64,000 nucleotides of DNA from Candidatus Binatia bacterium. GTDB taxonomy: Bacteria; Eisenbacteria; RBG-16-71-46; SZUA-252. The position numbers and the translations under genes were made by a program. The stretch is from assembly GCA_035631035.1 (NCBI GenBank), contig DASQJL010000011.1:1-64000 (forward strand). Direction: 5' to 3'. Position 1 is the stretch's first letter. Every line of letters starts with the position of its first letter. This document shows positions 4,376 to 26,247 of the stretch, piece after piece. The notes under the pieces were generated by a model. It was not told the origin of the DNA. It was given only the letters and a program-made list of their open reading frames with translations, and ran no database searches.

Positions 4376-4798
<423 letters not shown>

Positions 4799-4807
4799 GG
4801 CGGCATT

Positions 4808-6202
4808 CTACGCCAGAGGCAGATCCAGGCTGAAGGCCGAGCCCGCGCCCGCCCGGCTCGCGGCCGTCAGCGTCCCGTCCATCCGCTCGGCCAGCTGCTT
4901 CGCCATGGCAAGCCCCAGGCCCATGCCGCCGACGCGTCGCGTCGCGGACCCGTCCACCTGGCTGAACGACTCGAACAGCGTGCTCATGTGGTCGGGAGCG
5001 ATGCCGGGGCCGTCGTCCTTGACGGTGATCCGCGCCCAGCTCCGGCCGCCACGCTCCGCGCGGCTCACCTCGATCCCGATGCGGGAGCCCTCCGGCGTGA
5101 ACTTGACGGCGTTGTCCACCAGCGCGTCGACGATCTGGAGCAGGCGCTGGCGGTCGAAGCGGACCGGCGGCAGGTCGGGCTCGGCGAGGAAGGCGAGCTC
5201 CCGAAGGCCCTGCGTGACGCCGGGCAGCCGCTCCTCGTAGTAGCGCCGCAGCGGTTCGATGACGTCCGCGGACTCCAGATGCAGCTCGATCCCGTTCCGC
5301 CGCAGCTCGGAGAAATCGAGCAGCTTCTCCAGCGCGCCCTTGAGATTCTGCGCCTCGCCGAGCGCCGCGTTCAGGAACTCGGCGGACTCGGGGGCCGGCT
5401 TCTCGGTCTCGATCACGATCTGCAGCGAGGCGATCACGACGGTCAACGGGGTGCGCAGCTCATGATTCACGTTGCTCAGGAACTCCGATTTCAGGCGGTC
5501 CAGCTCCATCAGATTTTCGTTGGCGAGGCGAAGCTGCCGGTTGTTCTCCAGGAGCCGGTTGTAGAGCTTGGTGTTGTGGAGCGCGACGCCGACCATGCCG
5601 AGCGAGGTCTGCAGCCCCTGCAGCTCCACGGGACCGTAGCTCCCCGCGCCGAGGCGAGGCCCGATCGCCAGAAATCCGAGGACCTCGCCCCGCGTGAGGA
5701 TGGGCGCAAAAAGCTCGATCGACTCGCGTCGCGCCAGGAGTGCGGCGGCGCGCGCCGGCTCGTCCGTCATCTCCCCGGCCGGCACGATACGCGGCTCCCG
5801 CGTGAAGCGCTCGAGCAGCCAGCCTCCGCAGACGCTGCCCAGTGCGGCGGCGGTCCGCCGGTCCATGCCGTGACTGCGGAGCAGCACCGGCGCCGAGCGC
5901 CCGTGCTCGGAGATCAGCCAGAGCGCGGCACGCGCGGTTCCGAGCTGCCCCATGAGATTGAAGAGGACCAGGTCGGCGACCCCATAGAGGTCGAGCGAGA
6001 TCGTCAGCTCCTGGCTGAGCTCCGAGAGCGCGAGCAGCTCGTGCTCCCGGCGCGCGACCAGGCGCAGGGCGTGGCCCGTCGCGTCGGGCTCCGGCGGAGC
6101 CGTCACCGGGCGCCCCGGCGCTGCCGTCACCGGGGGCTCCGGCGCTTCCGGCAACGAGGTCTCGGTCGGACGCGGAACGAAGGGGTCAGGAGTCGAGGGC
6201 AT
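4808..6202 (-). CDS. GAF-domain sensor histidine kinase
   Basis: A 464-residue soluble histidine kinase with no membrane segment. A Pro/Ala-rich N-terminal tail (1-45) leads to a GAF domain (about 55-215), a coiled-coil linker (LLENNRQLRLANENLMELDRL), a HisKA dimerisation helix with the phosphoacceptor His in EFLSNVNHELRTPLT (near residue 245), and a HATPase_c domain with N box DALVDNAVKFT, G1 DDGPGIAP, F box LFESFSQVD and G2 GMGLGLAMAK. It has no receiver or output domain, and no response regulator is adjacent. Its start overlaps the STAS gene by 17 bases, making it part of the partner-switching operon. It may feed a phosphorylation signal into that switch, or act on an unlinked regulator. 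Confidence 0.93.
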   Translation of the reverse strand: MPSTPDPFVPRPTETSLPEAPEPPVTAAPGRPVTAPPEPDATGHALRLVARREHELLALSELSQELTISLDLYGVADLVLFNLMGQLGTARAALWLISEHGRSAPVLLRSHGMDRRTAAALGSVCGGWLLERFTREPRIVPAGEMTDEPARAAALLARRESIELFAPILTRGEVLGFLAIGPRLGAGSYGPVELQGLQTSLGMVGVALHNTKLYNRLLENNRQLRLANENLMELDRLKSEFLSNVNHELRTPLTVVIASLQIVIETEKPAPESAEFLNAALGEAQNLKGALEKLLDFSELRRNGIELHLESADVIEPLRRYYEERLPGVTQGLRELAFLAEPDLPPVRFDRQRLLQIVDALVDNAVKFTPEGSRIGIEVSRAERGGRSWARITVKDDGPGIAPDHMSTLFESFSQVDGSATRRVGGMGLGLAMAKQLAERMDGTLTAASRAGAGSAFSLDLPLA

Positions 6203-6533
6203 GAAGCGCTTCTTCTTCGGAGCCGTCGATCGGAAGGAAGGGCTCGAGGTTGAGCAGATGGATGACCGAGGTCACGGCCGCCGACGGCGAGGCGATCCGC
6301 ACCCGGGTGTCGCCCTGACGGAACTCCTCGGCCAGGCTGAGGAGCGATCCCAGCCCGCTCGAGGCCATGAAGGTGATCCCGGAGAGGTCCAGCACGAGGT
6401 TCAGGTTTCGCGCGCGGACCCGCGATCCCACTTCGAGCAGGTGGGTCGCGCTCCGCGCGTCGAGACGGCCGCGCACCCGCAGCAGCACCGCGCGCCCGCG
6501 CGTCTCCTCCTGGATCCCAAAGCTATCCGGCAT
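6186..6533 (-). CDS. STAS-domain anti-sigma-factor antagonist (RsbV/SpoIIAA-like)
   Basis: A 115-residue single STAS domain. The core strand-helix motif VLDLSGITFMASSGLGSLLSLAEEF (about 47-71) carries the Ser at the position phosphorylated by RsbW/SpoIIAB-type kinases. In the classical scheme the unphosphorylated protein binds the anti-sigma kinase and frees the sigma factor or other target. It overlaps the upstream phosphatase-kinase gene by 11 bases and the downstream histidine kinase by 17, so the three are translated together. The partner kinase is most likely the ATPase domain fused to the neighbouring phosphatase, although the RsbW-like protein at 23.5 kb is also a candidate. Confidence 0.93.
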   Translation of the reverse strand: MPDSFGIQEETRGRAVLLRVRGRLDARSATHLLEVGSRVRARNLNLVLDLSGITFMASSGLGSLLSLAEEFRQGDTRVRIASPSAAVTSVIHLLNLEPFLPIDGSEEEALHALDS

Positions 6534-8574
6534 GGGTCGCCTCCTCCGCTGCCCTGGCGCCGAAGCACATCCAGGTGATGTTGCCCGCGGCCGTGGATGG
6601 GGTGTAGACGACGCGGCGCATCGTCCGATGGATGATCTCGAGACCCAGACCGCGCCCGCGCCGCCGCACGCGCGGATCGTTGAAGTCCTGGGACTTCCAG
6701 TGGTTCGCGCTGAACGGCGTTCCCTGATCCCGGATCAGGAACCAGCCGTCCCGCAGGTGTCGCGCGGCCGTCTCCGGAGCCGGCCGCTCCATCGCCCCGC
6801 GCGCCCCATTCCCCTTGGGCGGCAGCCACCAGATCTCGTACTCGCGACGGGCATCGTGGCCATAGCCGTGCTCGGCCACGTTCGCGCACACCTCGTACAG
6901 CGTGCTCGTGAGCAGGTCGCGCTCCGGCGCGGGGAGGGCGTCGAGGGCCGGATTCGAACGGATCCAATCGCGGATCGGCTCGAGAGGATCGGAGCGGCCA
7001 TCCAGCACCAGGCTCGTCCCGCGGCCCCGGGCTTCCTCGTATTGCGCGAGCGCCGCGTGCTCGGGGTCGTGATGGAGCACCACGATCGTCTCGTCGTCCA
7101 GACGCGACCCGTCGCCCGACCAGCGGGTGAGTCGCTCGAAGAGGCCGTCGATCACCCCGCGCGGGCCGCCGGAAGCCGTCTCGCGCAGCGCGGTCATCAT
7201 CCGATCGTGCCCGAACTGCTCGCCCCCCTCGACGTCGAAGGCCTCGCTCACCCCGTCGGTGAACTGCAGGAGGGTGTCCCCGGGCTCGAGGACGAGGGTC
7301 TGATCCTCCAGGGTCGCGCGAATGGCGCCGCCCCGGATCGCGCCGAGCGGGATTCCACGGGTCCTCAGACTCTCGACGGTGCCGGTCGAGCGGCGGTACA
7401 CCAACGTGGGATTGTGGCCCGCCGAGGCGTACGTCAGCCCGCCCGTGCGCGGGTCGAGGATTCCGTAGAACATCGTGACGAAGCTTCCCCGTCGCAGCGT
7501 GGCACCGAGACGCTCGTCGAGCGCCGCGAGGAGTGCCGCGGGAGAACCCGCCACCCCGCGGTCGGCGCGGAGGAGGGCACAGAGCATCGACATGATCAGG
7601 CAACCGGCGAGCCCCTTGCCCGAAACGTCCGCCACGGCGAGGCCGATGCGGCCGTCGGGAAGCGGGAAATAGTCGTAGTAGTCGCCTCCCACCTCGGCGG
7701 CCGCCCGCTGGGAACCCTCGATGACAAAGGCCCCCTCGACGATGCGGTCCGAGGGCAGGATCGAGCCTTGGATCTCGCGCGCCAGCTCCATCTCGCGGGC
7801 CAGCCGCTCCCGCTCCACCATCTCCGCCTGGGCGCGCTTCAGCTCGGCGGCCATGTCGTTGATGGCGCGGGCCAGGAGCCCCAGCTCGGTCCCGTCCCGG
7901 ATCGAAACCGGGGTGTCGAGGTCGCCGCCGGCAATCCGTCGGATACCGTCCCGCAGGACCGACACCGGACGGAGCACGTGCGAAAGAATCAGGAAGGAGG
8001 CGGTGAGACCGACCAGGAGCGAGATCGCCAGGATCAGCGATTGCTGCCGTCGCGCCCGCTCGATCACGGCATCCACGTAGCTCGTGCGCATCGCGACGAC
8101 GACGTGCCCCAGCCGCTTGCCCGAGGGGTGCAGGATCGGCACCGACGCGACCAGCTCGCGATCGCTCCGGCGCAGCGTCTCGCCGGCTGCACGCGGCGGT
8201 CCGTCCAGGACGGGGCGCAGGCCCGAGGGCTCCGCGAAGCGCGTGCCCAGCCGGTGGGGATCGGCGTGCCCCTGGATGATCCCCGCATAGTCCACCACCA
8301 CGGCGTAGGACAGCTCCGGCTGCTTCGCGAGCTTCTCCTTGAGCAGCGGATGCAGCGTGAGCTCCGGGAAATCGCTGAGCAGGACTCCGGAGCTCGTGAG
8401 CGCCAGGTTCCGCGCCTCCAGGAGCAAGCGGCTCGTCAGCTCCGACGTGAGCGCCCGGCGCGCGTTCCGCTCCGCGACGGCGCCCACGCTGAGCACGACG
8501 GCCGCGGTCAGCCCGACGGCCACCAGCGTGACGATCCAGCGGATGCCGAGGACCCGCTCGCCGCGCCCCCTCAC
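6523..8574 (-). CDS. Membrane PP2C (SpoIIE/RsbU-type) phosphatase fused to an RsbW-like ATPase domain
   Basis: A 683-residue protein. A first membrane helix (WIVTLVAVGLTAAVVLSVGAV, about 13-33) and a second (LILAISLLVGLTASFLILSHVL, near 190) flank a periplasmic sensor loop of about 150 residues. A HAMP segment (RPVSVLRDGIRRIAGGDLD) and a coiled coil (MVERERLAREMELAREIQ) lead into a SpoIIE-type PP2C domain with EVGGDYYDYF, VADVSGKGLAG, SAGHNP, FTDGVSEAF and DDETIVVL metal-site motifs. The last 150 residues are a GHKL ATPase (N box LYEVCANVAEHGYG, G1 DQGTPFS, G2 GRGLGLEIIHRT). The protein thus holds both the phosphatase and the kinase of a partner switch. The GTG start overlaps the preceding stop (GTGA), the only start that gives the whole protein without running into the neighbour. 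Confidence 0.93.
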   Translation of the reverse strand: MRGRGERVLGIRWIVTLVAVGLTAAVVLSVGAVAERNARRALTSELTSRLLLEARNLALTSSGVLLSDFPELTLHPLLKEKLAKQPELSYAVVVDYAGIIQGHADPHRLGTRFAEPSGLRPVLDGPPRAAGETLRRSDRELVASVPILHPSGKRLGHVVVAMRTSYVDAVIERARRQQSLILAISLLVGLTASFLILSHVLRPVSVLRDGIRRIAGGDLDTPVSIRDGTELGLLARAINDMAAELKRAQAEMVERERLAREMELAREIQGSILPSDRIVEGAFVIEGSQRAAAEVGGDYYDYFPLPDGRIGLAVADVSGKGLAGCLIMSMLCALLRADRGVAGSPAALLAALDERLGATLRRGSFVTMFYGILDPRTGGLTYASAGHNPTLVYRRSTGTVESLRTRGIPLGAIRGGAIRATLEDQTLVLEPGDTLLQFTDGVSEAFDVEGGEQFGHDRMMTALRETASGGPRGVIDGLFERLTRWSGDGSRLDDETIVVLHHDPEHAALAQYEEARGRGTSLVLDGRSDPLEPIRDWIRSNPALDALPAPERDLLTSTLYEVCANVAEHGYGHDARREYEIWWLPPKGNGARGAMERPAPETAARHLRDGWFLIRDQGTPFSANHWKSQDFNDPRVRRRGRGLGLEIIHRTMRRVVYTPSTAAGNITWMCFGARAAEEATHAG

Positions 8575-10574
8575 GGCGCGTCTCCCGCCATCTCGCGCGA
8601 GCGTTCGAGCTGCTGCTGGGCGCGGGTCAGGTATCCCTTGGCGCGCGGGTCGTTCGGATCGACGGCCAGCGCCCGCTCCCAGTGCGCGATCGCATCGTCG
8701 AGCCGGCCGGCGGCGTAGGCGTCCAGGCCCTGGATCAGGTACTCCCGCTTCAGGTAGTCCCCGACGCGCTGGTAGCTCGGGTCGGCGGACCAGACGAGCT
8801 CGAAATAGCGGAGGGCGTCCGCGGAGCGCTTCTGCGCCAGGGCCGCGAGGCCGCGCCGGTACAGGTCGCGGAGGTCGCCCTGGCTGAGGCGGGACTCGGG
8901 GGCGGGCGCCGGCGCCGTGCGGGCCGGAGTCGGGCGCGGCGGGTCGGGTGTCCGGGCGGCGGCGACCTGGCGCGCGCGCTCCAGCGCCGCGTCGGCGGAG
9001 GCGAGCCCATCGGCGTCGGGATCCAGGTCGCGGGCTTCCTGGAGCTGCGACGCCGCGGCGTCCAGGCGACGGTCGGCCAGGCTGCGCCGCGCCTCGCGGA
9101 CCAGGGCCTGCGCGCGGCGCGACAGGGCGGCCTGCGTCCGGCGCAGCATCGCGCGCGCGTCCTCGTCGTTGGGCGTTTCCTCGAGGATCGCCGCGAAGCC
9201 GCTCCGCGCGGCGGCGAGGTGGTCCGACGCGAAGGCGTCCATCGCGTCGGCGAAGGCCTTCCGGATCTCCGCGGAGCGGGCGGCGCGGCGGTCGCTCTCG
9301 GCCCGGCAGCGCCCCTGGGCGACGCGCGCGTCGGGATCCTGCGGGCGCTTTTCGAGGATGCGTCCGTAGGCGACCGCGGCCTCCGCCAGGTTCCCCTCGC
9401 GCTCCAGCTTCGCTCCGTGCTCGCGAAGGCAGCGGATCTCCAGATCGCCCGCCTCGGCGTTGTCGGGATCGAGGGTATGGATGGTGGCGAGCGCCTCGAG
9501 CGCGTCCGGGTAGGCCGCCGCCGCGCGCGACTCCTCCGCTCGCGCCAGCAGCGCTTGGATCTTCTCTCCCTGCGCCCTCTGGAACGTCTCGGCCAGCCGC
9601 GCCTGGAGCTTCTCGTCTTCGGCGCGCAGCGCCGCGTCGCGGCGCTCGGCCGTCGTGGGGCCGAAGGCGTACGCCAGCCCCAGCCGGTGGATCGATTCGT
9701 AGGGCCGGTCCTCGAAAGCGTAGTCCAGCGCGATCCCACGCACGCGGAATCCCGCCCCGGCGGTGAGGGCGTCCCCGTTCATTCCGGCGCGCACGGACAG
9801 GTAGGGCCGCGGCGCGTACTCGGCGCCTGCGTGGACCTTCGCCCGCGCTCCGCCTCCGGTCTCGAGGTCCAGCGTGGCGAGGCCGAACGGGGTGCGGTAC
9901 GCGAAGCCCATCCGCCGGGTGCCGGGGTCGCGCACCGATTCCTGGTCCAGCCGGATCGAGGGCTGCACCAGGTTCCGAAGACCCAGTCCCCAGGTGATCT
10001 GGGACGCCCACCGCGAGGGCACGCGCAGCGCGAGCAAGGGGTAGACCGTGACTCCGAGATCCGCTCCCAGCCCGCTGCCGCTGCGCCCCGCGAGCGACTG
10101 CCGCTGCATCTTGACCGCGCCACCCACTCCGACCACCGCTCCGAACGTGCGTCCGTAGGCCACCGAGACCTCGCTCTCGGAGCTCGACAGATCGTTCCCG
10201 GTGGACACGTTCCGCTCGTCGCGTCCGTCGATCCCATCCGTCCCGAAGCGCCGGAACGAGACGCTGGCCGTCCCGAGACGCCAGCTGGGCAGCGCGAAGG
10301 CGACCCAGTCCTCCCGGAAGCCCAGGTCGTAGGAAACGGTGCTGACCGAGGCTTCGCCCCGGGGCACCCAGCCGAGCCCGCCCGGATTCCACGTCGCGAT
10401 CGCGGCGTCGCCGGGCACCGCGACGAAGGCTCCCCCGAGCGCCGTGCCGCGGCTTCCGGCCGGCGCGCTGAAGGGGGAGCGCGTCCCCGCGTCGTTTCCG
10501 TCGGCGCGGGCGTGCCCGGCAGGCACCGCCAGGAGCGCGCCGGAGATCAGCACGACCATCCCGCGCCGGGTCAT
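8571..10574 (-). CDS. PorV/UPF0164-like outer-membrane protein with C-terminal TPR repeats
   Basis: A 667-residue exported protein. A signal peptide (MTRRGMVVLISGALLAVPAGHARA) is followed by a beta-rich domain to about residue 300. Its opening motif SRGTALGGAFVAVPGDAAIATWNPGGLGW is the hallmark of PorV/UPF0164 barrels, in which one copy of each gene product forms a FadL-like channel associated with type IX secretion in Bacteroidetes. Residues 310-667 are helical TPR-like repeats (for example YPDALEALATIHTLDPDNAEA, LAEAAVAYGRILEKRPQDPDA, LDDAIAHWERALAVDPNDPRA), separated by a Pro/Ala-rich hinge near 555-575. TPRs of this kind serve as protein-docking surfaces. The ATG overlaps the stop of the giant upstream gene (ATGA) and its own stop overlaps the phosphatase start, so it is tightly coupled on both sides. 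Confidence 0.88.
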   Translation of the reverse strand: MTRRGMVVLISGALLAVPAGHARADGNDAGTRSPFSAPAGSRGTALGGAFVAVPGDAAIATWNPGGLGWVPRGEASVSTVSYDLGFREDWVAFALPSWRLGTASVSFRRFGTDGIDGRDERNVSTGNDLSSSESEVSVAYGRTFGAVVGVGGAVKMQRQSLAGRSGSGLGADLGVTVYPLLALRVPSRWASQITWGLGLRNLVQPSIRLDQESVRDPGTRRMGFAYRTPFGLATLDLETGGGARAKVHAGAEYAPRPYLSVRAGMNGDALTAGAGFRVRGIALDYAFEDRPYESIHRLGLAYAFGPTTAERRDAALRAEDEKLQARLAETFQRAQGEKIQALLARAEESRAAAAYPDALEALATIHTLDPDNAEAGDLEIRCLREHGAKLEREGNLAEAAVAYGRILEKRPQDPDARVAQGRCRAESDRRAARSAEIRKAFADAMDAFASDHLAAARSGFAAILEETPNDEDARAMLRRTQAALSRRAQALVREARRSLADRRLDAAASQLQEARDLDPDADGLASADAALERARQVAAARTPDPPRPTPARTAPAPAPESRLSQGDLRDLYRRGLAALAQKRSADALRYFELVWSADPSYQRVGDYLKREYLIQGLDAYAAGRLDDAIAHWERALAVDPNDPRAKGYLTRAQQQLERSREMAGDAP

Positions 10575-13500
10575 CGCAGCACCGCCACTTTGCGCCGGGC
10601 GCGGTCGGTCGACCCGTCGGCGTACTTCACGATCAGCTCGGCCACGTAGACGCCGTTCCGGACCACGTCGCCGCGCCCGTTCCGCCCGTCCCACCCGTCG
10701 GCCTGGTGCAGACCGGACCCGCGCGGCGCGCGATCGAGCAGCGTAGCGACTCCCTCTCCGGACGGCGTCCAGATGCGAAGGGTGACGTCGGCGGGCGCGG
10801 CCAGGTAGTAGACGAACGAGGTGGCTTCGCGGCCGGCCGCGAACGGATTCGGGAAGTTGCCCCAGCTGGCGGCCAGGCTCGCGGGCGTGAAGGAGCCCGA
10901 CTCGGTCCAGAAGGGGAACGCGGCGCCCGCTTCGGGCGAGACCTGCACGGTCAGGAGCGCGCTGCCCGGCTGGACGACGCCGATTCCCGTCGCATCGATG
11001 CCGATCCGGAAGGAAGCGGCCGTGGGAGCCGGCTGCGGCACGACCCGGATCTCGATCGAGACGTTCCGGCCGGCGTCGATGTCGAGCGGCGACGCGGCGG
11101 CGAGGGTGGCCTCGGTCGAGTCCGCGGCGAGGGAGTCGCTTTGCGCCCAGAGCGCCCCGTTCACGTAGGCCAGGACCGATCGCGCGGCCGCGCCGAGGGG
11201 GATCGCGCGGAACTTCGGATCGGCGGCGCGCAGGCGGAGGCGATCGACGCGAATCGATCCCGAGCCGGCCGATGCGCCGTTTCGGAGGGTGAGAACGCCC
11301 GTGACGACCTCCCGGCCGTCCGCCGCGAGCGCCGCCGGCATGCGGTCGAGGAGCCCGGCGAACAGGTCGCGCGCCGGCGAAGCGATGTGCGTGAGCCCCG
11401 ACACCAGCGGGAAATCGACTCCCGGCTCCGGCACCGCGCGCACCGGTTGTCCCGAGTTGGCGTCGTCCGCCACGATTCCCGAGCCGCCGATCGCGAGCTC
11501 GAGAAAGGAGGCCGGCGCCGAGGGGCTCAGGTCGGCCACCAGCGTGAAGGAGGCGCTGTCGCCCGGCTCGAGCCAAGCGCCGGCGACCGGCACCGGGATC
11601 GGAACGGACGTGACGGGCAGGCTCGTCACGTTCGCGACCTCCACGCCGTCGCGAAGGAGCCGGACGCGATCGAGGAAGAGGTCGGGGACCCGCGCGCCGC
11701 GCGTCTCGTCCCGGACCTGCACGAGCAGGGTGTCCAGCCGGATCGGTCCCGTCCCCGGGAGGCCCGGATGCCGAAGCACGAGGCGAAGCGCCGGAAGATC
11801 GCGCTCTCCGGCGACGGCGGCCGCCGGGAAGAGCGAGGAGCCGCCGGCGAGGACGTCCCGGGCCGGCGCCTCGACCCGAACGGGCGTGCCCCACGCCGTG
11901 CCGCCGGCGTAGGTGACCGCGACCGAATCGCGCGAGTTGGCGTCCTGAGCCGCGAAGGCCGCCGGCGGCTGGAGGACCAGCCGGAAGGCCCCCACGCGCG
12001 CGGTGTCGGCCACGTCGCCGGACGCCAGGAGGTCGACCGGAGTCCCCGCAGGGACGGCGAGCGGAGGGCTGAGCACCAGGGTCACGTGGGGACCCGAGCC
12101 GACCGGCACCGCCTGCGTCGCGAAGGTCTGGAAGCCGGCGCGCAGCACGACGCGCCTCAGGAATGACGCCGCCTGCGGGACGGGCACGCCGGCCGTGTCG
12201 GCGACCGTCACGCCGACCTGGGTCACCTGCACGTCCGACGTGATCCCGGGCACGCCGGCGTTGTCGAGGCGGAACGTCCCGAGCGGAACGTCGGCGCTCC
12301 CCACGGCGACCCGCGCGGCCGGGCCGCCGAGCGCCGCGACCTCGAGCCCGACGGCGTCGGCGACGATGCGGGCGAGCCCCGAGGCGACCGGGAAGGCGCC
12401 TCCCTCGCGCCGCACCGTGACCGGCGCTCCGCTGGTCGCGTCTTCCGCCAGGATCTCGGTGCTGTCGGCGACCACCACGCGGAACGCGGGCACGGTCGTC
12501 GAATCGGAGACGTCCACGCGCACGCTGATCGTCACCGGCTCCTGGGCCGTGACGCGAAGCGGGGACGCCAGCGTGAGATTCATCTCGGAGCCCGAGGTCT
12601 CGAGGGACGACCGGCTCAGGTACACGTTCGTCCCCTCGTTCACGCTCACGTGCGCGAGAAGCGCCGCCGGCACGACGCCCGCGCCGCTCTCATCCTGCAG
12701 GTGCAGTCGGAACGAGCGGATCCGGATGTCCGAGGCGCCCGCGCCGCCGCCGTTCGTGAGGGTGAGGCTGAAGGGCACGACGCCGGTCTGGCCGCGCGTG
12801 ACGTTGAAGGGCATCGACTGGACGGGGAACAGCGCGAGGTCCGCCGCCGCGAGGTAGACGCGATGCACGTTGGACGCGGTCTCCACCGCGCGCCGGGTGA
12901 GCCCGGTCTCGAGGCCGGTTCCCTGGGCGCCGCCCGCGAACTGGACCGAGCCCGCGCCCGTCGAGTGGTAGGTCCAGAGGAAGGTGTCCACGGCGGCCGG
13001 GGCCAGATCGGCCGCCGAGCCCGGCCCCGCGTCCAGGACGGTCGGCGCCGTCCCGGTGGTCTGGAGCGGGCCCGGCAGCACCCCCGTCACGGTTTCCGCC
13101 CCGACGTTGCGCACGATCATCCGCACCGTGATCGGCTGCCCCACGGTGCTCGCGGCGCTGGCGGTTTCGATCGTGGCCAGGAGCGGCGACGTGCTCACGA
13201 GAATCGGCTGCTCGTTGTCGACCGGCATGTCGAGCGGCCCGTCGTTCCCGGTGTCCATCTGGACCCCGCCGAACGGGATTCCCAGGCGGACCGTGACGGA
13301 ATCCCGCGCGCCGGCGCCGGTCCGGAGCGAAACGAAGAGACGCCGACCGGCTCCTCCGACCGGCTCGCTCAGGAAGGGACTCCGCCAGATCTGCGCGCTG
13401 GAATCGGGAACCATGAGCCCCAGGTCGGCGTCGTCGCCGCCGCCCGCCGAGAAGACTCCGTCGCCGCCGTCTCCCCACAGCCTCAGCTCGGCGATGTCGG

Positions 13501-16500
13501 AGCCGGGCGCCGCCGAACCCAGGTTCACGACGGCCAGGTTCCGCAGCGTGTCCGTCTCGTACCCGTTCCAGGGCACGACCACGTTCATCGCGAGCGTCGG
13601 CCCGTCCCCCGGGCCCACGGTGACCCCGGGCGCGCCGATGTTCGTGAGCTGTGCCGCCGTCAGCCCGTCCACGGTCGCGCGGGCGCGCGAGTCGATCGGC
13701 CAGGCGGCCGTGATGGTGGTCGCTTCCTTGAAGCCGAGATCCAGCGGGCCGGCCACCTTGGCCGAGAGCAGGTCGCCGTCCCTGGCGCCGCTTCGGGCGA
13801 CGTCGGCGACCAGGAAGAGGTGCACGGCGCGCCCCGGCGGGATGGCGGTCGAGAGGCCGCCGAACACCGCGCGTCCTCCCGTGAAGAATGAGGTGCCGAG
13901 CGGCGGATCCACGGCGGGGTCGCCCACCTGTCCGTCGCCGTCGCCGTCCAGCCGCAGCGTGGCCGACTCGATCTCCCCGTCGCGCTCGGCCACCCCTCCC
14001 GGTCCGATCGTGGCGTTCGTGAACGCGACGCTCGTCAGGGTCCGCGGGTCGGCGTAGCTGTTCGTGAGAACGAAGTGGTGGAGGAGAACGCGGCGGTCAC
14101 CCGGGTGCACCGACGTCGATTCCACGTCGGCCGCGGTCACCGTCACGCGGTCCACGGTGCTGACCGCGCGCTCCGCGAGGCTGCGTACGACCCGGTCGCG
14201 CGGCCCACTGTTGCCGCTCTGCACGCCGATGCCGGCGTCCAGCCCCGAGGGGATTCCGAGCTGGACGGTGCGGCCCTGGCGCGCGAGATCCGCGAGGTCG
14301 ACCGTGACGAACAGGCGCAGTCCCCCGAGCGGGATCGTCTCGGCGAGCCCCGTGCGCTGCCAGCGGTCGCCGGTGTTCACCAGATCGCCGAGGAGCCTGT
14401 CGCGCGTGGCGTCGAACGTGCTGTCGCCGTCGTCCGCCCACGCCCGCAGCCGGGTGATGTCGGTGGCTGTCTCGGCCGTGCCGAAGTTCACGACGGCGAG
14501 CTTCTGGAGCAGGTCGGCCCGATACCCGTTCGGCGGCACGATGAACTCGAGCGCCGGGTTGTTGGACGATCCCGCGAGAAGGTTCCCCGTGGGGCCGGGA
14601 AGGAGCCGGATCTGATCCGCCGCCATCCCGTCCACCACGAAGACTCCCGCCGGGCGGAGCGGCCAGCCCGTCCGGTAGAAGGGCACGCGCAGGAACGCCA
14701 CGGAGGTGGAATCGTCGAGCGAGACGTCCAGCGTGTCGCCGTCGCGCGCGTCGAGCGGAACGGAGCTGGTGACGAGAAGCCGCGTCGTGCTCCCCGGCGC
14801 GAGGGCCAGGGAGAGCGGCGCGAACGTCACCGAGCCGCTGAGGGCCGAGGTGGTGACGAGAAGGGTGTCGGCGCCGCTCTCCAGGGCGCCGTCGCCGTCG
14901 TCCTTGTAGAGCGCGGCGTCGCCGAGCTCCTCGTCCAGCTGATCCGCATCGCCGGCGCCCGCCGAGCGGTTGGTGAGGCGGATCGAGCGGACGGAACGGG
15001 TGTCGGGATAGTGGTTCGTCACGGTGACGTTCGCGAGCAGGACGTTGCGCGCGCCCGGCAATACCGTCGCCGGAACCTGCGACGCGGTCACGGAGATGCC
15101 CCCGGTGGAGATCAGCGCCGCCACCGGGGCGTCCGCGGCGTCGTCCCGCACCGGGATATCCGAAACGACCTCGGTCGCCGACACCGCGGCGTCGAGGGCG
15201 ACCGTTCCGGTGGTCGCGGAGGCGAGGACGTGGGCCAGTGCCGTCAGGACCACGGTTCCGCGGGGCCCGATACCGGCGGGGCTGCCGCCGGGGAGGCTCA
15301 CGGTGAAGTCACCGTCCGCGTCCCCCGGGATGAGACGCGTGAACCGCAGTGCGGGCGGGTCGAGGCGGATCGAATCGGCGCCGAGGTTCGTGAGGGTGAG
15401 ACGGACGGCGACCGAGTCCTGTCCCTGGTAGAGCGCCGAGGGAGCGCTCAGCCCCGCGATCCGGATGCCGCGCGTCGGGCGGACGGTGATCGGAGCGGTG
15501 GCGGAGAGCGCCCCCGTGGTCGCGATCACGAGTCCCGAGCCGACCGCGCCGGCGGTGAAGCGTCCGGAAGCGTCCACCGACCCCACGCCTCCCTGCGTGG
15601 ACCACGCGAAGGAGCGCGAAACCGGATGGCCGTAGGCGTCGAAGGCCGCGGCCGCGAACGTGCTGGCCTCGCCCACGAACAGCGAGGCGGAGTCGGGCGT
15701 CACCCGGACCGAGGCGACCGGTCCCGGCACCACGACCACGCGCCAGTCGTTCCGGTCGGCGACGCCGTTCGCGTTTCCCTCCGCCGCCACTTCGGGCGGA
15801 CGCGCCGTGGACGCGTCGTCGTACTGCACGACGAAATTGGACCCGGTCGAGTCGACATCCACGGGCGTGGCCACCTGGAACCCGATCTCGATCAGACGCG
15901 AGAAGAGGGAGTAGGCCACATGGCTCGCGAGCCGCGCTTCCATGATGCCCGTCTGGCTCGCGTCGGTGTAAGCCACCGCGCTGCCGCCTACCTTCACGCT
16001 CGTGATCGCCGGCACGCCATAGCCGTCCGGGATGCTGACCCGGATGCGGTCGATCCCGGTATCGAAGAGGGAGAAGGTCGGCAGGGCGTACGCCGTGAAG
16101 CCCTGGGCGCCGACACCGACCGCCACGGTGTCGGGGATCACCTCCGCGACGACCGACTGAGCGGCCTGTCCCGACGTCGTGATCGTCGCGGTCAAGGGAA
16201 TCGTCGGCTCGGTGGACCGGACACCCGAGGCCGCGAGGCGCACCTTCACCGCACCGCGATAGTCCTGCGCTGGCAGGGAAGAGGGGAGATCGATCCAGAG
16301 ATAGAGGTTCTCGGCCGTCGGCGTCTCGGAAGTCGCCGCGGCGCGCGCGGTCGCCAGGGCCACATAGGCGGTGTCCAGGCGGCCGCCCGCGGTGCGGCTG
16401 GAATTGAACGCCCACGAGACGGGCTGAGCGGGCGGCCCCGCGCGCAGGGTATCCGTCGGCGAAACCGTCCCGACCAGGTTCCGGACCGCCGCCTGCAGGT

Positions 16501-18520
16501 CGTACGCGGCGTTGGCCAGAACGTGAAGGTCGACCTTTCCGTCGGGCGGATCGCGCAGCGGAAGCAGCGACGCCCCCGGCGAGCCCGCGTTGAACGAGCC
16601 CGCCGAGTCGTCCCAGGCCACGGTCAGCAGGACCGCGGCGTTCACGCCCGTCTTGGAACGTGAGGCCGTCGAGTCCACGGGCGTCTTGCTGATCGTGTTC
16701 ACGCGCGCCGTCCACTCGCCGGTCGAGGAGGCCCTCGCGATCAGGCCGGGGCGGAACGCGAACCGGATCGTTTGGGAGCTCGTGCTGTTCGTCACCGTAT
16801 CCACGGAGCAGAGAGAGGGGAGGACGCTCCAGCTGGAGACGGCGGGATCGACCGTCGTGAACGGCATGGCGACCCCCCGGCGCCAGCGGTACGCCGCCCG
16901 GTAGGCCGGGGCGTTCACGTCACTCGCATGGCCGTTGAAGGAGAGCACCAGGTCGGCTCCGGTGATGTCCTTGAAGCCGTTGCCGTCGCTCAACACCACG
17001 TCAGCGAACATCGTGTCCTGGGGCACGAGGGTGTTGGTGGAGACGCCCGCACGGTTCCGCAGCGTCACCGACGTGATCGTGGGGAGCAGGGCGGGCTGGA
17101 TGTCGAGGAGCGCATAGGCGTAGCCGGGTCCGCTCGTGGCGTTCGCGTACCACGCGATCAGATAGAAGTTGCTCCCTGCCTTCTTCGCGCAGAAGAGCCC
17201 CGTGTCGTCCACGGTGCCGATCGACGGGTCGTACACGCCCCGGGTGGCGTCGTAAAGGTCGAAGCTGTCGGCCTGCACCGGGTAACGGTTCCCCGCCCCG
17301 TCGGTGGCGATCAAGGTGAACGGGCTGCACTGGCCGACGACCGTGTTGAGGGTGTCCGGCTCGAGCGCAACGGAAATGACGGAGAGGCTGGGATCGAGAA
17401 GCCAGGTATCGCCGTTCCCCGCCTTTCCGTCCGCGTTGCCCGGCCAGAGGACCTGCTGGAAGCAGCCCGGGGTGGTGGTGTCGTCCACGTAAACCGGGAT
17501 CTCGCTCTTCTGGGTCGCGAGCACGTCGACGTGGAACACCGCCTGGACCGTTCCCACGATCGCGACGCGAGGAAGGCGCACCGTGATCGACGAGCCGTTG
17601 TCGTACCAGGTCACCTGATCCAGCGGGACCGGCGCGCCGCCCACGAAGAGGCTGTCCAGGCTCCGGCCGCGAAGCGAGCCCTGGTGATCGATGGTGATCA
17701 GGTCGAACCCGGTCGCGGAACCGCTCGGGGTGGTCCCTTTGGCATCGACGTCGAGCCAGACGGTCCAGGGGACGTTCGCGATCCCCTTCACCACCCGGTA
17801 GGGCTGAATCTCGGCCGTTCCGCTCCGGATGGCGGGCGGCTCGTCCGTGTACTGGAGGATGAGCTGCGGCGTCTTCGTCGTGTCGGTCGCGAACTCGCTG
17901 GTCCGGAACTGCATCTCCAGATCCTGGCCGGTCTCGGCGGTGAGGAGAAACCCGTTGTTCGCGAGCGTGCCCAGGTTCCACGCGTTCACGATGGGCCCCA
18001 CCTGCCAGCTCGTGCGGGAGAGGTTGGTCTGGTCGGAGATCGTGCGCCGGGAGGTCCACGTGGAAAGGCGGGTCCCGCCCGCCGTCGTCCAGGGGCTGCC
18101 CGAAAACCGGTTGGTCCAGCTGGCGCCGGTTTCGGTCCAGGATTGCGTCAGCGCGTGGCTGGTGACCGACATCGACCCGGCATTGGCCGCCGACTGATAG
18201 AGGCTGAGCCAGGCCTGGAGGACGGTCTTTCCGGTCAGGTCGGGGAGGGGGATCGAGACGACGGCGTTCTTGGTCTTGCCTCCCGTGCTCCGCTTGACCC
18301 GCATGTCCGGATCGGAGCCGCGGTTCTCGGTGGTGTTTTCCTGCTTCAGGTAGGTGTCGGCGGTGATCGTCCGCGACTGGACGGTGATCGTGGTCGTGGC
18401 GCCCCGGGCCGGCAAGGCGGCGGCCAGGGCCCCTATCGCGATCAGGGCGCAGCAAAGACCCCGGACAGCGCAGGCCGCCGTCCGTGGCAGATCTCGACGA
18501 TCGAACGTGCGAATCGCCAC
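10571..18520 (-). CDS. Giant secreted multidomain surface protein with FlgD-like C-terminal tail
   Basis: A 2,649-residue exported protein. The signal peptide (AACAVRGLCCALIAIGALAAALPARGA) is followed by a DNRLRE-type domain (about 40-230: DTYLKQENTTENRGSDPDMRV, LSLYQSAANAG, ILQYTDEP). Then come many Ig-like beta-sandwich modules, including a Big2-like one (VTPDSASLFVGEASTFAAAAFDAYG) and two pairs of internal repeats built on V.V.NHYPD/TNSYADP..L.SV and NGYRADLLQKLAVVNFG/NGYETDTLRNLAVVNLG with Asp/Gly-rich, possibly calcium-binding loops. The last 90 residues (FPNPFAAGREATSFVYYL ... GWDGRNGRGDVVRNGVYVAEL) form the FlgD-Ig-like sorting or anchoring domain. The start chosen is the GTG at 18520, with AAGGA 13 bases upstream; a GTG at 18559 is possible but lacks a clear binding site. 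It is probably a surface or extracellular adhesin. No enzyme motif was seen. Confidence 0.85.
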   Translation of the reverse strand: MAIRTFDRRDLPRTAACAVRGLCCALIAIGALAAALPARGATTTITVQSRTITADTYLKQENTTENRGSDPDMRVKRSTGGKTKNAVVSIPLPDLTGKTVLQAWLSLYQSAANAGSMSVTSHALTQSWTETGASWTNRFSGSPWTTAGGTRLSTWTSRRTISDQTNLSRTSWQVGPIVNAWNLGTLANNGFLLTAETGQDLEMQFRTSEFATDTTKTPQLILQYTDEPPAIRSGTAEIQPYRVVKGIANVPWTVWLDVDAKGTTPSGSATGFDLITIDHQGSLRGRSLDSLFVGGAPVPLDQVTWYDNGSSITVRLPRVAIVGTVQAVFHVDVLATQKSEIPVYVDDTTTPGCFQQVLWPGNADGKAGNGDTWLLDPSLSVISVALEPDTLNTVVGQCSPFTLIATDGAGNRYPVQADSFDLYDATRGVYDPSIGTVDDTGLFCAKKAGSNFYLIAWYANATSGPGYAYALLDIQPALLPTITSVTLRNRAGVSTNTLVPQDTMFADVVLSDGNGFKDITGADLVLSFNGHASDVNAPAYRAAYRWRRGVAMPFTTVDPAVSSWSVLPSLCSVDTVTNSTSSQTIRFAFRPGLIARASSTGEWTARVNTISKTPVDSTASRSKTGVNAAVLLTVAWDDSAGSFNAGSPGASLLPLRDPPDGKVDLHVLANAAYDLQAAVRNLVGTVSPTDTLRAGPPAQPVSWAFNSSRTAGGRLDTAYVALATARAAATSETPTAENLYLWIDLPSSLPAQDYRGAVKVRLAASGVRSTEPTIPLTATITTSGQAAQSVVAEVIPDTVAVGVGAQGFTAYALPTFSLFDTGIDRIRVSIPDGYGVPAITSVKVGGSAVAYTDASQTGIMEARLASHVAYSLFSRLIEIGFQVATPVDVDSTGSNFVVQYDDASTARPPEVAAEGNANGVADRNDWRVVVVPGPVASVRVTPDSASLFVGEASTFAAAAFDAYGHPVSRSFAWSTQGGVGSVDASGRFTAGAVGSGLVIATTGALSATAPITVRPTRGIRIAGLSAPSALYQGQDSVAVRLTLTNLGADSIRLDPPALRFTRLIPGDADGDFTVSLPGGSPAGIGPRGTVVLTALAHVLASATTGTVALDAAVSATEVVSDIPVRDDAADAPVAALISTGGISVTASQVPATVLPGARNVLLANVTVTNHYPDTRSVRSIRLTNRSAGAGDADQLDEELGDAALYKDDGDGALESGADTLLVTTSALSGSVTFAPLSLALAPGSTTRLLVTSSVPLDARDGDTLDVSLDDSTSVAFLRVPFYRTGWPLRPAGVFVVDGMAADQIRLLPGPTGNLLAGSSNNPALEFIVPPNGYRADLLQKLAVVNFGTAETATDITRLRAWADDGDSTFDATRDRLLGDLVNTGDRWQRTGLAETIPLGGLRLFVTVDLADLARQGRTVQLGIPSGLDAGIGVQSGNSGPRDRVVRSLAERAVSTVDRVTVTAADVESTSVHPGDRRVLLHHFVLTNSYADPRTLTSVAFTNATIGPGGVAERDGEIESATLRLDGDGDGQVGDPAVDPPLGTSFFTGGRAVFGGLSTAIPPGRAVHLFLVADVARSGARDGDLLSAKVAGPLDLGFKEATTITAAWPIDSRARATVDGLTAAQLTNIGAPGVTVGPGDGPTLAMNVVVPWNGYETDTLRNLAVVNLGSAAPGSDIAELRLWGDGGDGVFSAGGGDDADLGLMVPDSSAQIWRSPFLSEPVGGAGRRLFVSLRTGAGARDSVTVRLGIPFGGVQMDTGNDGPLDMPVDNEQPILVSTSPLLATIETASAASTVGQPITVRMIVRNVGAETVTGVLPGPLQTTGTAPTVLDAGPGSAADLAPAAVDTFLWTYHSTGAGSVQFAGGAQGTGLETGLTRRAVETASNVHRVYLAAADLALFPVQSMPFNVTRGQTGVVPFSLTLTNGGGAGASDIRIRSFRLHLQDESGAGVVPAALLAHVSVNEGTNVYLSRSSLETSGSEMNLTLASPLRVTAQEPVTISVRVDVSDSTTVPAFRVVVADSTEILAEDATSGAPVTVRREGGAFPVASGLARIVADAVGLEVAALGGPAARVAVGSADVPLGTFRLDNAGVPGITSDVQVTQVGVTVADTAGVPVPQAASFLRRVVLRAGFQTFATQAVPVGSGPHVTLVLSPPLAVPAGTPVDLLASGDVADTARVGAFRLVLQPPAAFAAQDANSRDSVAVTYAGGTAWGTPVRVEAPARDVLAGGSSLFPAAAVAGERDLPALRLVLRHPGLPGTGPIRLDTLLVQVRDETRGARVPDLFLDRVRLLRDGVEVANVTSLPVTSVPIPVPVAGAWLEPGDSASFTLVADLSPSAPASFLELAIGGSGIVADDANSGQPVRAVPEPGVDFPLVSGLTHIASPARDLFAGLLDRMPAALAADGREVVTGVLTLRNGASAGSGSIRVDRLRLRAADPKFRAIPLGAAARSVLAYVNGALWAQSDSLAADSTEATLAAASPLDIDAGRNVSIEIRVVPQPAPTAASFRIGIDATGIGVVQPGSALLTVQVSPEAGAAFPFWTESGSFTPASLAASWGNFPNPFAAGREATSFVYYLAAPADVTLRIWTPSGEGVATLLDRAPRGSGLHQADGWDGRNGRGDVVRNGVYVAELIVKYADGSTDRARRKVAVLR

Positions 18521-18631
18521 GCCACCCCCATAGTCCTTGTTCCCGGAATCTATCGGCACGTAGGGGTCCGTACTGGAGCGGGTCGTGGATGGCGGCTTGA
18601 CGCGTTCGGCGACGCTCGGCTATGGTTCCGC

Positions 18632-23493: not shown

Positions 23494-23943
23494 CTACTTC
23501 GCCAGCGCCTTCCGCAACCGCACTGTCGTCCCGTGATCGGGGCGCACGTCGAAGGACACGTCGTCCACCAGCTGCTTCATGAGAAAGATCCCGCGTCCGT
23601 GGGTCTCGAGCAGCGAGGATTCGTCGGTGGGGTTGCCCACCTTGGTGGGGTCGAAGCCCTTCCCGCGATCGTCCACCTGCACGACCAGCGTTCCATCCTC
23701 CAGATGAAACTCGAACGTCACCGACTTGTCCTCGGCGAACACGTTTCCATGCTGGATGGCGTTGGTGCCGGCTTCGATGACGGCGTAGAGGAGGGCCTGG
23801 GTGGTGTCCTCGTCGATCTTGCGCTCGCGCGCGATTCCTTCGATCAGGGCATGCACCACCGCGAGGTTCTCGAAGCGGCTCCCGATCACCAGGCGGACGG
23901 CGTTTTCGTTGTTCAGGGAGGGTGACCCGTGGGGCGCGCCCAT
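23494..23943 (-). CDS. RsbW-like serine-protein kinase / anti-sigma regulatory ATPase
   Basis: A 149-residue stand-alone GHKL ATPase of the anti-sigma regulatory type. N box ALLYAVIEAGTNAIQHGN (about 56-73), G1 DDRGKGFDPTKV (about 98-109) and G2 ETHGRGIFLMKQLVDDV (about 120-136) are intact. Such proteins phosphorylate a STAS-domain antagonist and hold a sigma factor or other partner inactive. It follows the SpoIIE-type phosphatase gene by 87 bases on the same strand, so kinase and opposing phosphatase are made together. There is no STAS gene beside it; the nearest in the window is at 6186-6533. Confidence 0.92.
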   Translation of the reverse strand: MGAPHGSPSLNNENAVRLVIGSRFENLAVVHALIEGIARERKIDEDTTQALLYAVIEAGTNAIQHGNVFAEDKSVTFEFHLEDGTLVVQVDDRGKGFDPTKVGNPTDESSLLETHGRGIFLMKQLVDDVSFDVRPDHGTTVRLRKALAK

Positions 23944-24030
23944 ATCGCTACTGTAGCAAATCCCACGCCCGGTAGCGCCGGGGAGTAGCGTGGCCGTAAC
24001 GCCCTCTCCGCCGTGTCGACCGCGGCCGCC

Positions 24031-26247
24031 TCACCGGGTCTTCAGCGCCACGAGGGTGATGTCGTCCGCCTGGTCGGCTCCTCCCGTGAACCGGGAAACG
24101 TCCTCGGCGACGGCGTGGACGATCTGCGCGGCGGAGAAGTCGCGGGGCATTCCCGTCGCGAGCGCCTGGAGCCGCGCGTCGCCGTAATCTTCGCCGTCCC
24201 GGTTGCGGGCGTCGGTGATTCCGTCGGTGTAGAGCAGGAGGGAGTCGCCCGCCTGGAGGCTGGCGGACGCTTCGGGATACGCGAACTCGGACCACACGCC
24301 CAGCGGAATGCCGCCCTCTTCCAGGTAGCGCCATCCCCCCGCAGCCGGCATCACGATGGGAAAGTTGTGTCCCGCGTTCGAGAAGGAGAAGGCCGGCCCC
24401 ACGCCGCCGATCCGGGCAAGGAAACAGGTCGCGAAGCGGTCGTCGGGGGTCGCGTCGAAGACCAGGCGGTTGAGCCGCCCCAACAGCTCGCCCACCGGCT
24501 TCCGGTCCTGGGCCTGCGTTCGGATGGATGCCTGCACCATCGAGGCGAGAAGCGCCGCGGGCACGCCCTTTCCGGCGACGTCGGCGATCACCACCAGGTA
24601 CTCGCCGCCGCCGACGTCGACCAGGTCGTAGTAATCGCCTCCCACTTCCCGCGTCTGCAGATTCAGCGCGGCCATGTCGAGGCCGGCCATGCGCGGCAGC
24701 ACCTGGGGCAGGAACTGCTGCTGGATCCGCCGCGCCACGGCCAGCTCCTCCTCCAAGATCGACTTGGCGAGGCTCTCCCGGTAGAGGAAGCCGTTCTTGA
24801 TCGCGACACTCGACTGGTTGGCCAGGGTCTGCAACAGAGCGCTCTCCTCGGCGGTGTAGCGCATCTCCGTGATCTTCCGTCCCAGCGCGATCAGCCCGAG
24901 CAGCTCGCCGGCGTGCCGGAGCGGGAACAGGAGGTAGGGCTCGGTGCGGAGCAGGGGATCGAGCGCCTCGCTCACCCCGCGCTCGTCGCAGCGGGGGCGC
25001 ACCTCCTCGCGGCGCAGGAGCGGCACGCCGTCGAAGAGTGCGGCGAGCGCGGTGCGCGGGATGCCCGCGATCTCCCCCAGATCCACGCTGCCGCCGAACC
25101 CGCGCGCGATCGACGCTCCCCGGTCCGCCGCGATCAGGAGCACCGTGGTGCGCGCGGGCACGCCGTCGCGGAGCGTGGCGAGGATCTTCTCGGCCAGGGT
25201 GTCCAGCTCGAGCACCGTGAGCACCTCGGCGCTCATGCGCCGGAGCAGCGTGCGGTGATCGCCCCGGTCGCGCAGGAAGTAGCGGTCCAGCACGTCCTCC
25301 AGCCAGGAGAAGATCGGCTGGAAGAGGACGAGCGCCAGGAGGAGCATCGCGGTCTTGAACACCGTGGTGTCGTACCCGGGCGTGGTCACGAGCATCGCGT
25401 CCACCTGCCGGATGATCGTGATGTAGACGCCGATCAGGAAGCCCGACGTCACCGCATAGAGGATCGACTTCCGCGCGATCAGGTTCGCGTCCAGGAAGCG
25501 ATGGCGCACGATCGAGTAGGCGATGGAGCCCGAGCCCAGGATCAGCGCCGCCACGATCAGGGTCGAGCGGACCACGGGCGGCCAGGCGTGGTTCAGGAGC
25601 GTCGGGATCGGCACGGCGATGGCGTAGAGCCCCGCGCAGGAGGCGAGCCCCGAGAAGATGGTGCGCACCTGCGCGCGGATCAGCTTGTTCGTCGTCCGGC
25701 GGAAGCTCAGCCAGAGCAGCGTGAGCGCCGCGGCGATGTACACCAGATTGACCATCGAGAAGAGGAGCTGATGGAAGCGGAAGATCAGCTCGAACGGGAT
25801 GCGGAGGTAGAGGAAGACGCCGGAGGCGGCGCTCTTCGCCATCGCCGCCGAGACCCGTCCCCAGAGCGCGCCCTGCGAGGCGAGCACCATGAAGCAGAGG
25901 TGCGCCACGTGGGGCGCGAAGATCCATCCGGCGGCGAAGGGGACGCGCCGGATCAGGCGGTTTTCCGACGGAAAGACGCAGGCGAAGTAGAGGAGCGAGG
26001 GGAAGAAGAGCTCCCAGAGATAGTTGAAGGAGCGCAGCAGGTCGTTGGTGCCGGCGCGGGCCGCCGACAGCGATTCCAGGACGAATCCGATCGCGCCGAG
26101 CACCGAGCCCAGACCCGCGAAGAACAGCATGAGGGCGGTCGCGCGGTTCAGGCGCTCCCGAGGCGCCTCGCGCAGGATCACGAAGCCGAGGAGGAAGACG
26201 AGCCCCGCGACCAACAGGTAGATCGAGCCGATGGTGGCGTTGTACAT
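24031..26247 (-). CDS. Membrane SpoIIE-type PP2C phosphatase with GAF domain
   Basis: A 738-residue protein. The first 320 residues carry about eight membrane helices (for example SIYLLVAGLVFLLGFVIL, ATALMLFFAGLGSVLGAIGF, LLLALVLFQPIFSWL) resembling the 7TM-type sensor regions of some histidine kinases. A short helical linker and a GAF-like domain (about 345-500: LAEKILATLRDGVPARTTVLLI ... YTAEESALLQTLANQSSVAIKN) follow, then a coiled coil (EEELAVARRIQQQFLPQ) and a PP2C domain with EVGGDYYDL, IADVAGKGVPAAL, NAGHNFP, LYTDGITDARN and ADDITLVAL metal-site motifs. It should dephosphorylate a STAS protein in response to a membrane or GAF-sensed signal. The RsbW-like kinase gene is next downstream. 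Confidence 0.93.
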   Translation of the reverse strand: MYNATIGSIYLLVAGLVFLLGFVILREAPRERLNRATALMLFFAGLGSVLGAIGFVLESLSAARAGTNDLLRSFNYLWELFFPSLLYFACVFPSENRLIRRVPFAAGWIFAPHVAHLCFMVLASQGALWGRVSAAMAKSAASGVFLYLRIPFELIFRFHQLLFSMVNLVYIAAALTLLWLSFRRTTNKLIRAQVRTIFSGLASCAGLYAIAVPIPTLLNHAWPPVVRSTLIVAALILGSGSIAYSIVRHRFLDANLIARKSILYAVTSGFLIGVYITIIRQVDAMLVTTPGYDTTVFKTAMLLLALVLFQPIFSWLEDVLDRYFLRDRGDHRTLLRRMSAEVLTVLELDTLAEKILATLRDGVPARTTVLLIAADRGASIARGFGGSVDLGEIAGIPRTALAALFDGVPLLRREEVRPRCDERGVSEALDPLLRTEPYLLFPLRHAGELLGLIALGRKITEMRYTAEESALLQTLANQSSVAIKNGFLYRESLAKSILEEELAVARRIQQQFLPQVLPRMAGLDMAALNLQTREVGGDYYDLVDVGGGEYLVVIADVAGKGVPAALLASMVQASIRTQAQDRKPVGELLGRLNRLVFDATPDDRFATCFLARIGGVGPAFSFSNAGHNFPIVMPAAGGWRYLEEGGIPLGVWSEFAYPEASASLQAGDSLLLYTDGITDARNRDGEDYGDARLQALATGMPRDFSAAQIVHAVAEDVSRFTGGADQADDITLVALKTR

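Follow-up and report, generated by a model that had tools for sequence, protein, structure and literature searches.

Five consecutive genes, designated A to E, run along the minus strand from position 18520 to position 4808 of the window, the 64,000-nucleotide stretch of contig DASQJL010000011.1 that was analysed. The window belongs to a 3.35 Mb Eisenbacteria-phylum assembly (genome G000 below). Successive genes overlap by 4, 4, 11 and 17 bases, as the first-pass annotation had described and as the gene coordinates bear out. An independent codon-usage gene caller chose the same five consecutive genes, preferring slightly later starts for A and E.

Gene A, 10571..18520, minus strand: start GTG at 18520 (alternative GTG at 18559), stop at 10571; 2649 aa.
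Gene B, 8571..10574, minus strand: PorV/PorQ-family outer-membrane beta-barrel with C-terminal TPR; 667 aa.
Gene C, 6523..8574, minus strand: sCache-HAMP-PP2C-HATPase_c_2, combining a sensor phosphatase and an RsbW-type kinase domain in one protein; 683 aa.
Gene D, 6186..6533, minus strand: STAS protein of the anti-sigma-antagonist type; 115 aa.
Gene E, 4808..6202, minus strand: GAF-HisKA-HATPase_c histidine kinase, candidate effector; 464 aa.

A consensus scan, which is weak evidence in this phylum, found no promoter-like or terminator-like sites on the minus strand inside the run; the separate internal promoters that had been named as grounds against a single unit thus do not appear in it. 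Rfam and tRNA scans of the window gave no matches. A YjbQ/UPF0047 gene (4376-4798, minus strand) begins 9 bases past E and is probably co-transcribed with it in the window. It was not found at the other loci and was rejected as a sixth member.

Gene A encodes a predicted secreted surface protein with a signal-like segment, read off the sequence, at its N-terminus. Three regions can be delimited:

A, DNRLRE/CBM96 module, 17855..18361, minus strand: in the variable N-terminal part; NCBIfam NF033679 at 9e-20, Pfam CBM96 at 3.7e-08.
A, conserved core of ~1500 aa (residues 1140-2649), 10574..15103, minus strand: common to all 11 aligned A orthologues.
A, FlgD_ig-like C-terminal tail, 10574..10858, minus strand: best-conserved part of A; Ig-type model.

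Across the 11 orthologues the core is 36-48% identical inside the phylum and 26% identical to Zixibacteria. The part N-terminal to it varies from nothing to ~1900 residues, and the DNRLRE/CBM96 module is unconserved; domain searching also returned a weak Big_2 match in A. This is the pattern of a putative constant stalk carrying a changeable tip. The tail of ~100 residues is the only part clearly common to A and to A', the giant protein of a paralogous cassette considered below. When a recognised type A or type B CTD was sought, the tail gave weak FlgD_ig and PorU-tail matches, both below cut-off. A fold search with the tail model recovered only generic Ig folds, PorU among them, and is not diagnostic. 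Elsewhere in the window, another giant of 2280 aa (51329-58171, plus strand) joins a subtilisin-like peptidase to numerous Ig domains of the HYDIN/ASH type and ends in a FlgD_ig tail scoring above the Pfam cut-off.

Gene B scores 85.7 bits against the PorV/PorQ family model NF033709, just below its cut-off of 90, and carries TPR repeats in addition. Its structure model (pLDDT 79) consists of a barrel followed by the TPR helices, and the best PDB match of this model is 6h3i_F, a chain of the Type 9 translocon.

B, beta-barrel (residues 73-304), 9663..10358, minus strand: from the structure model.
B, TPR helices (residues 308-662), 8589..9653, minus strand: from domain search and model; predicted periplasmic.

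The presence of a PorV does not establish a full T9SS here; the protein is better regarded as a cargo shuttle or anchor of the type IX-like kind. Because the topology of the barrel would place the TPR in the periplasm, where the sCache domain of C is also predicted to lie, the TPR of B is the obvious candidate for a relay.

Gene C contains both enzymatic halves of a partner switch; its domains are given below, together with one feature each of D and E:

C, sCache_3_2 (residues 38-175), 8050..8463, minus strand: from domain search; predicted periplasmic.
C, HAMP, 7837..7986, minus strand: from domain search.
C, SpoIIE-type PP2C, 7069..7659, minus strand: acidic motif D298, D316, D440, D493, D494 invariant.
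C, HATPase_c_2 of the RsbW/SpoIIAB type, 6565..6984, minus strand: E561, N565, D616, G618, G642, G644 invariant.
D, Ser58 codon, 6360..6362, minus strand: conserved without exception across the D and D' sequences compared.
E, GAF region, 5576..5992, minus strand: also found ahead of GGDEF in the protein at the E position of locus L095 (FCPU426).

Alignment indicates that the metal-binding aspartates of the PP2C domain and the N and G boxes of the HATPase_c_2 domain of C are intact. The SiaA family model matches C over HAMP-PP2C (3e-18), with 65.6 bits against an equivalog cut-off of 700. sCache domains usually bind small ligands, and that of C could bind one of its own. Dicarboxylate sensing of the DcuS kind is disfavoured, as two DcuS arginines, which we take to be the dicarboxylate-binding pair, are both unconserved in C. 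About 5 kb upstream of A (23494-26247, minus strand) lies a second pair, a 738-aa PP2C protein with a C-terminal SpoIIE domain and a 149-aa HATPase_c_2 protein, which is a separate partner-switch candidate.

Gene D scores above the NCBIfam cut-off for anti-sigma-antagonists (TIGR00377), and its Ser58 presumably corresponds to the phosphorylated serine of SpoIIAA. Gene E contains HisKA and HATPase_c domains and a weak GAF match, making it a genuine two-component-type histidine kinase. E was rejected as an RsbW-like kinase, since the RsbW-type domain is the C-terminal domain of C. The HisKA phosphoacceptor histidine is present in E and, among five aligned sequences, is replaced (by glutamine) in G002 only. 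The gene is absent or replaced in G027, G041 and G042; taken with the G002 substitution, this makes the role of E less constant than that of A-B-C. At the far end of the window (58353-63776, plus strand) is an open reading frame for a 1807-aa hybrid histidine kinase with a long HAMP run, GAF and three receiver domains, followed downstream by a 652-aa receiver-containing protein.

Orthologues of C were sought in a phylum set of 47 Eisenbacteria genomes, where the full-length, high-scoring ones adjoin B in all cases but one. The order A-B-C-D-E on one strand occurs in G000, G025, G012 and G002. In G041 and G042, genes for a PAS kinase and a receiver protein come after A-B-C-D. In G044, A-B-C is succeeded by a single open frame spanning E and D, within which D retains a start of its own and a good ribosome site, and then by the PAS kinase and receiver. 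In G034, B-C-D-E is kept and A is convergent; in G027, A-B and C-D lie at two contig ends, without E. The clearest exception is G004 (L083, G004:C77:44302-47238), where A and B are missing and C-D is accompanied by just a fragment of E. This locus is apparently a decaying or re-used remnant, and it indicates that C-D can persist alone.

A paralogous cassette, A'-B'-C'-D', is found in G000 itself (L084, G000:C12:7000-26900), in all members examined of the same family and in two f7 genomes. Here, the ATPase domain is N-terminal in C' and an HTH is C-terminal, and D' consists of STAS with a weak HTH_21-like extension, so the output of this primed form may be DNA binding. At L084, genes for a VWA-like membrane protein and a lamin-tail-type protein follow the primed genes. 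A ParA/MinD-like ATPase gene lies between C' and D' at L092, L200, L204, L212, L296 and L297.

Beyond Eisenbacteria, the cassette extends to other little-studied phyla, A-B-C being found also in Zixibacteria, the Latescibacterota group and KSB1/Calditrichota records. The contig scan with C as query responds to general PP2C motifs and undercounts close relatives; counts are supplied by the genome-set searches. Among the C-query matches listed, the unprimed set occurs in Zixibacteria L091 and in L106, the primed form in Latescibacterota L092, KSB1 L097 and L104 and Calditrichota L101, and B'-C'-D' in FCPU426 L095; within the same listing, none of 63 generic PP2C loci (L107-L169) has a B-type PorV neighbour. 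The full set with a separate STAS-HATPase gene is present in Zixibacteria L091, L203, L209 and L236-L238, and also in L106. The Calditrichota C' (L101 6088-10092) itself bears C-terminal TPR repeats, and the KSB1 C' (L097) has weak similarity to B'.

Trees of B and C are concordant in all 48 pairings and resolve two paralogous lineages. The unprimed clade comprises seven Eisenbacteria-phylum and ten Zixibacteria-type sequences, with support of 0.998 for B and 0.993 for C. As this clade unites two phyla, each monophyletic within it, the cassette probably predates their split. The trees indicate that the primed and unprimed cassettes are ancient paralogues, both present in the window genome. Chance adjacency of the five genes is rejected, because order and orientation recur across phyla. 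The five genes thus hold as a conserved unit far beyond one genome. The first-pass annotation had named related genomes with the surface protein and PorV set apart from the switch as contrary evidence, and this objection fails, since A-B-C recurs across phyla.

An association between B and C can be measured by selecting loci on their match to B alone and then checking the neighbours, a locus being testable where the contig permits. Among 132 Zixibacteria-phylum genomes, C or C' lies directly downstream in 29/29 testable loci of the top 30 B matches, one of which (L196) has a weak partial C match only. A or A' lies upstream of B in 29 of these 30 top matches, the remaining one being at a contig start. 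For 20 weaker PorV-TPR matches, C or C' is next in 19, L210 being the exception without C. A C-type sensor also adjoins B in all 30 testable loci from 78 genomes of the phylum of the Latescibacterota record. Plain PorVs without TPR behave differently. Zixibacteria-phylum controls of ~300-330 aa have a PP2C neighbour in 0/15 cases, and a sample of 148 genomes of Bacteroidota, the group in which type IX secretion is studied, contained plain PorVs only (16 above threshold, C beside 0/16), the cassette being absent. In sum, a C-type sensor is adjacent to 78 of 79 testable TPR-bearing PorVs and to 0/31 plain ones, or, with the Eisenbacteria loci pooled, to 97/98 against 0/31 (Fisher p 5e-29, a value that overstates independence as the loci are related by descent, making recurrence between phyla the stronger argument). 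It is the TPR extension that distinguishes PorVs lying beside a sensor from the others.

What follows the sensor is far less fixed. In 8 of 30 Latescibacterota-group loci, an HD-GYP domain takes the place of PP2C behind A, B and sCache-HAMP. At the five of these that were fully read, the sCache domain is 37-42% identical to that of the window C, and no STAS or kinase gene directly follows; in one of them, L288, a hybrid histidine kinase is encoded two genes beyond. The B proteins of these five loci form one clade nested among unprimed B (enclosing-clade support 1.0). The first-pass annotation had described the five genes as including a complete partner-switching module. That description stands for the window, where the set of phosphatase, kinase and STAS is complete with intact catalytic motifs, but it does not stand for the cassette at large, as the HD-GYP loci, without D and E beside C, indicate that partner switching is not its essence.

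Further exchanges and fusions point the same way. L095 is the only locus with GGDEF, its E slot encoding GAF-GGDEF. In Eisenbacteria the kinase and PP2C domains share one protein, and in Zixibacteria the kinase domain is encoded by a separate STAS-HATPase gene; L294 has a HATPase-STAS fusion, and L092 a single 1468-aa HATPase-sCache-HAMP-PP2C-HTH-STAS-STAS-STAS protein. Output domains are therefore swapped behind an unchanged A-B-sCache-HAMP, which makes A-B-sensor the constant part and the partner switch one of several outputs. Because the input modules are constant and the outputs exchange, an inward signal would be expected, and the comparison of sequences favours surface-to-inside signalling over control of secretion.

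Parts of a type IX-like apparatus are present in these genomes. The SprA translocon (SprA_N, PF14349) is found in G000, in 39/47 phylum genomes and in 17 of 20 genomes checked elsewhere. Peptidase_C25 occurs in all 47 phylum genomes, PorU not being told from other C25 peptidases. The GldM/PorM motor (GldM_1st, PF12081) was detected in 0/47, a result of unproven sensitivity given a control set without a true positive. Together, these data suggest that A may take a route resembling type IX secretion, driven by a motor that is different or escaped detection, and we infer that it is exported by an SprA-type translocon.

Taken together, the most probable reading, to which we assign a probability of roughly 0.55, is a signalling cassette that spans the envelope, its genes arranged in the order in which the signal would travel, from A through B, C and D to E. 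A would be a long protein at the cell surface, its stalk conserved and its outer end variable, and the dedicated barrel B would display it through the FlgD-like tail. The periplasmic TPR of B would convey the condition of A and B, whether export, anchoring or contact with a ligand, to the periplasmic sCache domain of inner-membrane C. Through HAMP, C would then set the balance between its PP2C and RsbW-type kinase activities, and with it the phosphorylation of D at Ser58. Unphosphorylated D would then bind its effector, for which E is the likeliest candidate, contacted at the GAF region and altered in its histidine kinase activity. In this chain we infer the B-C contact, the signal direction, the phosphorylation of D and the role of E as target.

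The same parts could be connected in the opposite direction, with a small molecule bound at sCache acting through the switch on the synthesis or export of A (via B or the translocon), A and B then being targets. The handling of cargo export by PorV-type proteins in the literature, the usual preference of sCache domains for small ligands and the co-orientation and overlap of all genes would suit such an arrangement, which we nevertheless regard as unlikely. With D and E predicted to be cytosolic and the TPR of B periplasmic, one sees no direct way for the signal to return to B; HD-GYP in the C slot, without STAS or kinase and with A and B unchanged, is more readily explained by a common input than by a common target; and the loss of the presumed dicarboxylate-binding arginines of DcuS also counts against it. 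A classic sigma switch, with the HATPase domain of C holding an unlinked sigma factor, D releasing it and E as an accessory kinase, appears quite unlikely. It would agree with the anti-sigma-antagonist score of D and the RsbW/SpoIIAB family membership of HATPase_c_2, and the genome does encode four full- or near-full-length SigBFG-like sigma factors. However, none of the four passes the SigBFG cut-off or lies near the window locus, no mapped locus has a sigma-factor gene in the cassette, in agreement with the earlier proposal that the switch has no conventional sigma factor as target, and the kinase is tethered to the membrane through its fusion to C.

It is highly improbable that an ordinary cargo/shuttle pair, A-B, merely shares a promoter with an unrelated signalling set, C-D-E. 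Two observations would fit such an operon: most of the 15 plain-PorV control loci still have a FlgD-tailed protein upstream of PorV, and C-D occurs without A-B in G004. Against this, A-B-C adjacency is kept between phyla and in two paralogous lineages with concordant trees, and it is confined to TPR-bearing PorVs.

Each component of the proposed signalling chain has relatives in described systems. The RsbU-RsbW-RsbV and SpoIIE-SpoIIAB-SpoIIAA switches likewise combine a PP2C phosphatase, a GHKL kinase and a STAS protein with the serine conserved here as Ser58; in contrast to them, the cassette lacks a linked sigma factor and joins phosphatase and kinase in one membrane sensor. DcuS/CitA-type sensors share the sCache fold and its position before HAMP, but the cassette output is PP2C or HD-GYP, and the two arginines that we take to bind ligand in DcuS are not kept.

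SiaABCD (PMC8457831, PMC7647112) is similar in that a SiaA-kind sensor phosphatase and a kinase go together with a STAS-like protein whose target is an enzyme, not a sigma factor. In Pseudomonas aeruginosa, SiaC activates the enzyme SiaD unless phosphorylated by SiaB (PMC8457831), and this diguanylate cyclase output is matched by GAF-GGDEF of L095. The cassette differs in that kinase and phosphatase are fused, the STAS protein is of the Ser type as opposed to the DUF1987 protein SiaC, the linked candidate effector in the window is a GAF histidine kinase instead of a diguanylate cyclase, and a giant surface protein and PorV-TPR belong to it.

In Porphyromonas gingivalis, the CTD protein PorA interacts with PorV, and it is through PorA that a signal from the surface is proposed to reach PorXY-SigP (PMC7712824). 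A tail-bearing surface protein, PorV and a proposed relay to an inner-membrane sensor are common to both, although the PorA pathway uses the PorXY two-component system and an ECF sigma factor, PorA has 23 kDa, and TPR-PorV, PP2C, STAS and a single gene cluster are absent. Cargo-specific shuttles encoded beside their cargo are also described (PMC12618676, PMC9143113). SprB-SprF and type B CTD-PorP pairs (PMC9143113, PMC12618676) resemble A-B in placing a surface protein beside its own anchoring or targeting outer-membrane barrel; in the cassette, by contrast, the barrel is PorV-like with TPR, the tail is FlgD-like, a sensor is linked and the hosts lie outside Bacteroidota. Among open-access papers, none was found that links PorV or type IX secretion to partner switching, SpoIIE or STAS, and that literature likewise yields no description of a system with this gene order, as had been supposed at the outset. 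All parts belong to known families; their combination, with exchangeable outputs, is new as far as tested against the open-access literature.

More broadly, the cassette may represent a new class of outer-membrane sensor in several FCB-related phyla, in which A and PorV-TPR would form a constant receptor that makes use of type IX-like parts; we hold this as a tentative proposal, at somewhat less than even odds. Equally tentative is the corollary that its inner-membrane outputs would be interchangeable among a partner switch, a two-component kinase, a diguanylate cyclase and a c-di-GMP phosphodiesterase. T9SS has been said to be confined to Bacteroidota (PMC12618676), and the present survey places PorV and SprA homologues outside that phylum. 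The TPR extension is suggested as a mark of those PorVs that signal. Outside the usual model bacteria, little has been learnt of how a surface protein signals through both membranes, and the cassette offers a complete candidate chain laid out in gene order. It gives a clear prediction, that the TPR of B touches the sCache domain of C, and its natural output swaps could be used to test the direction of signalling. There is a real chance that it constitutes a distinct class of surface sensor.
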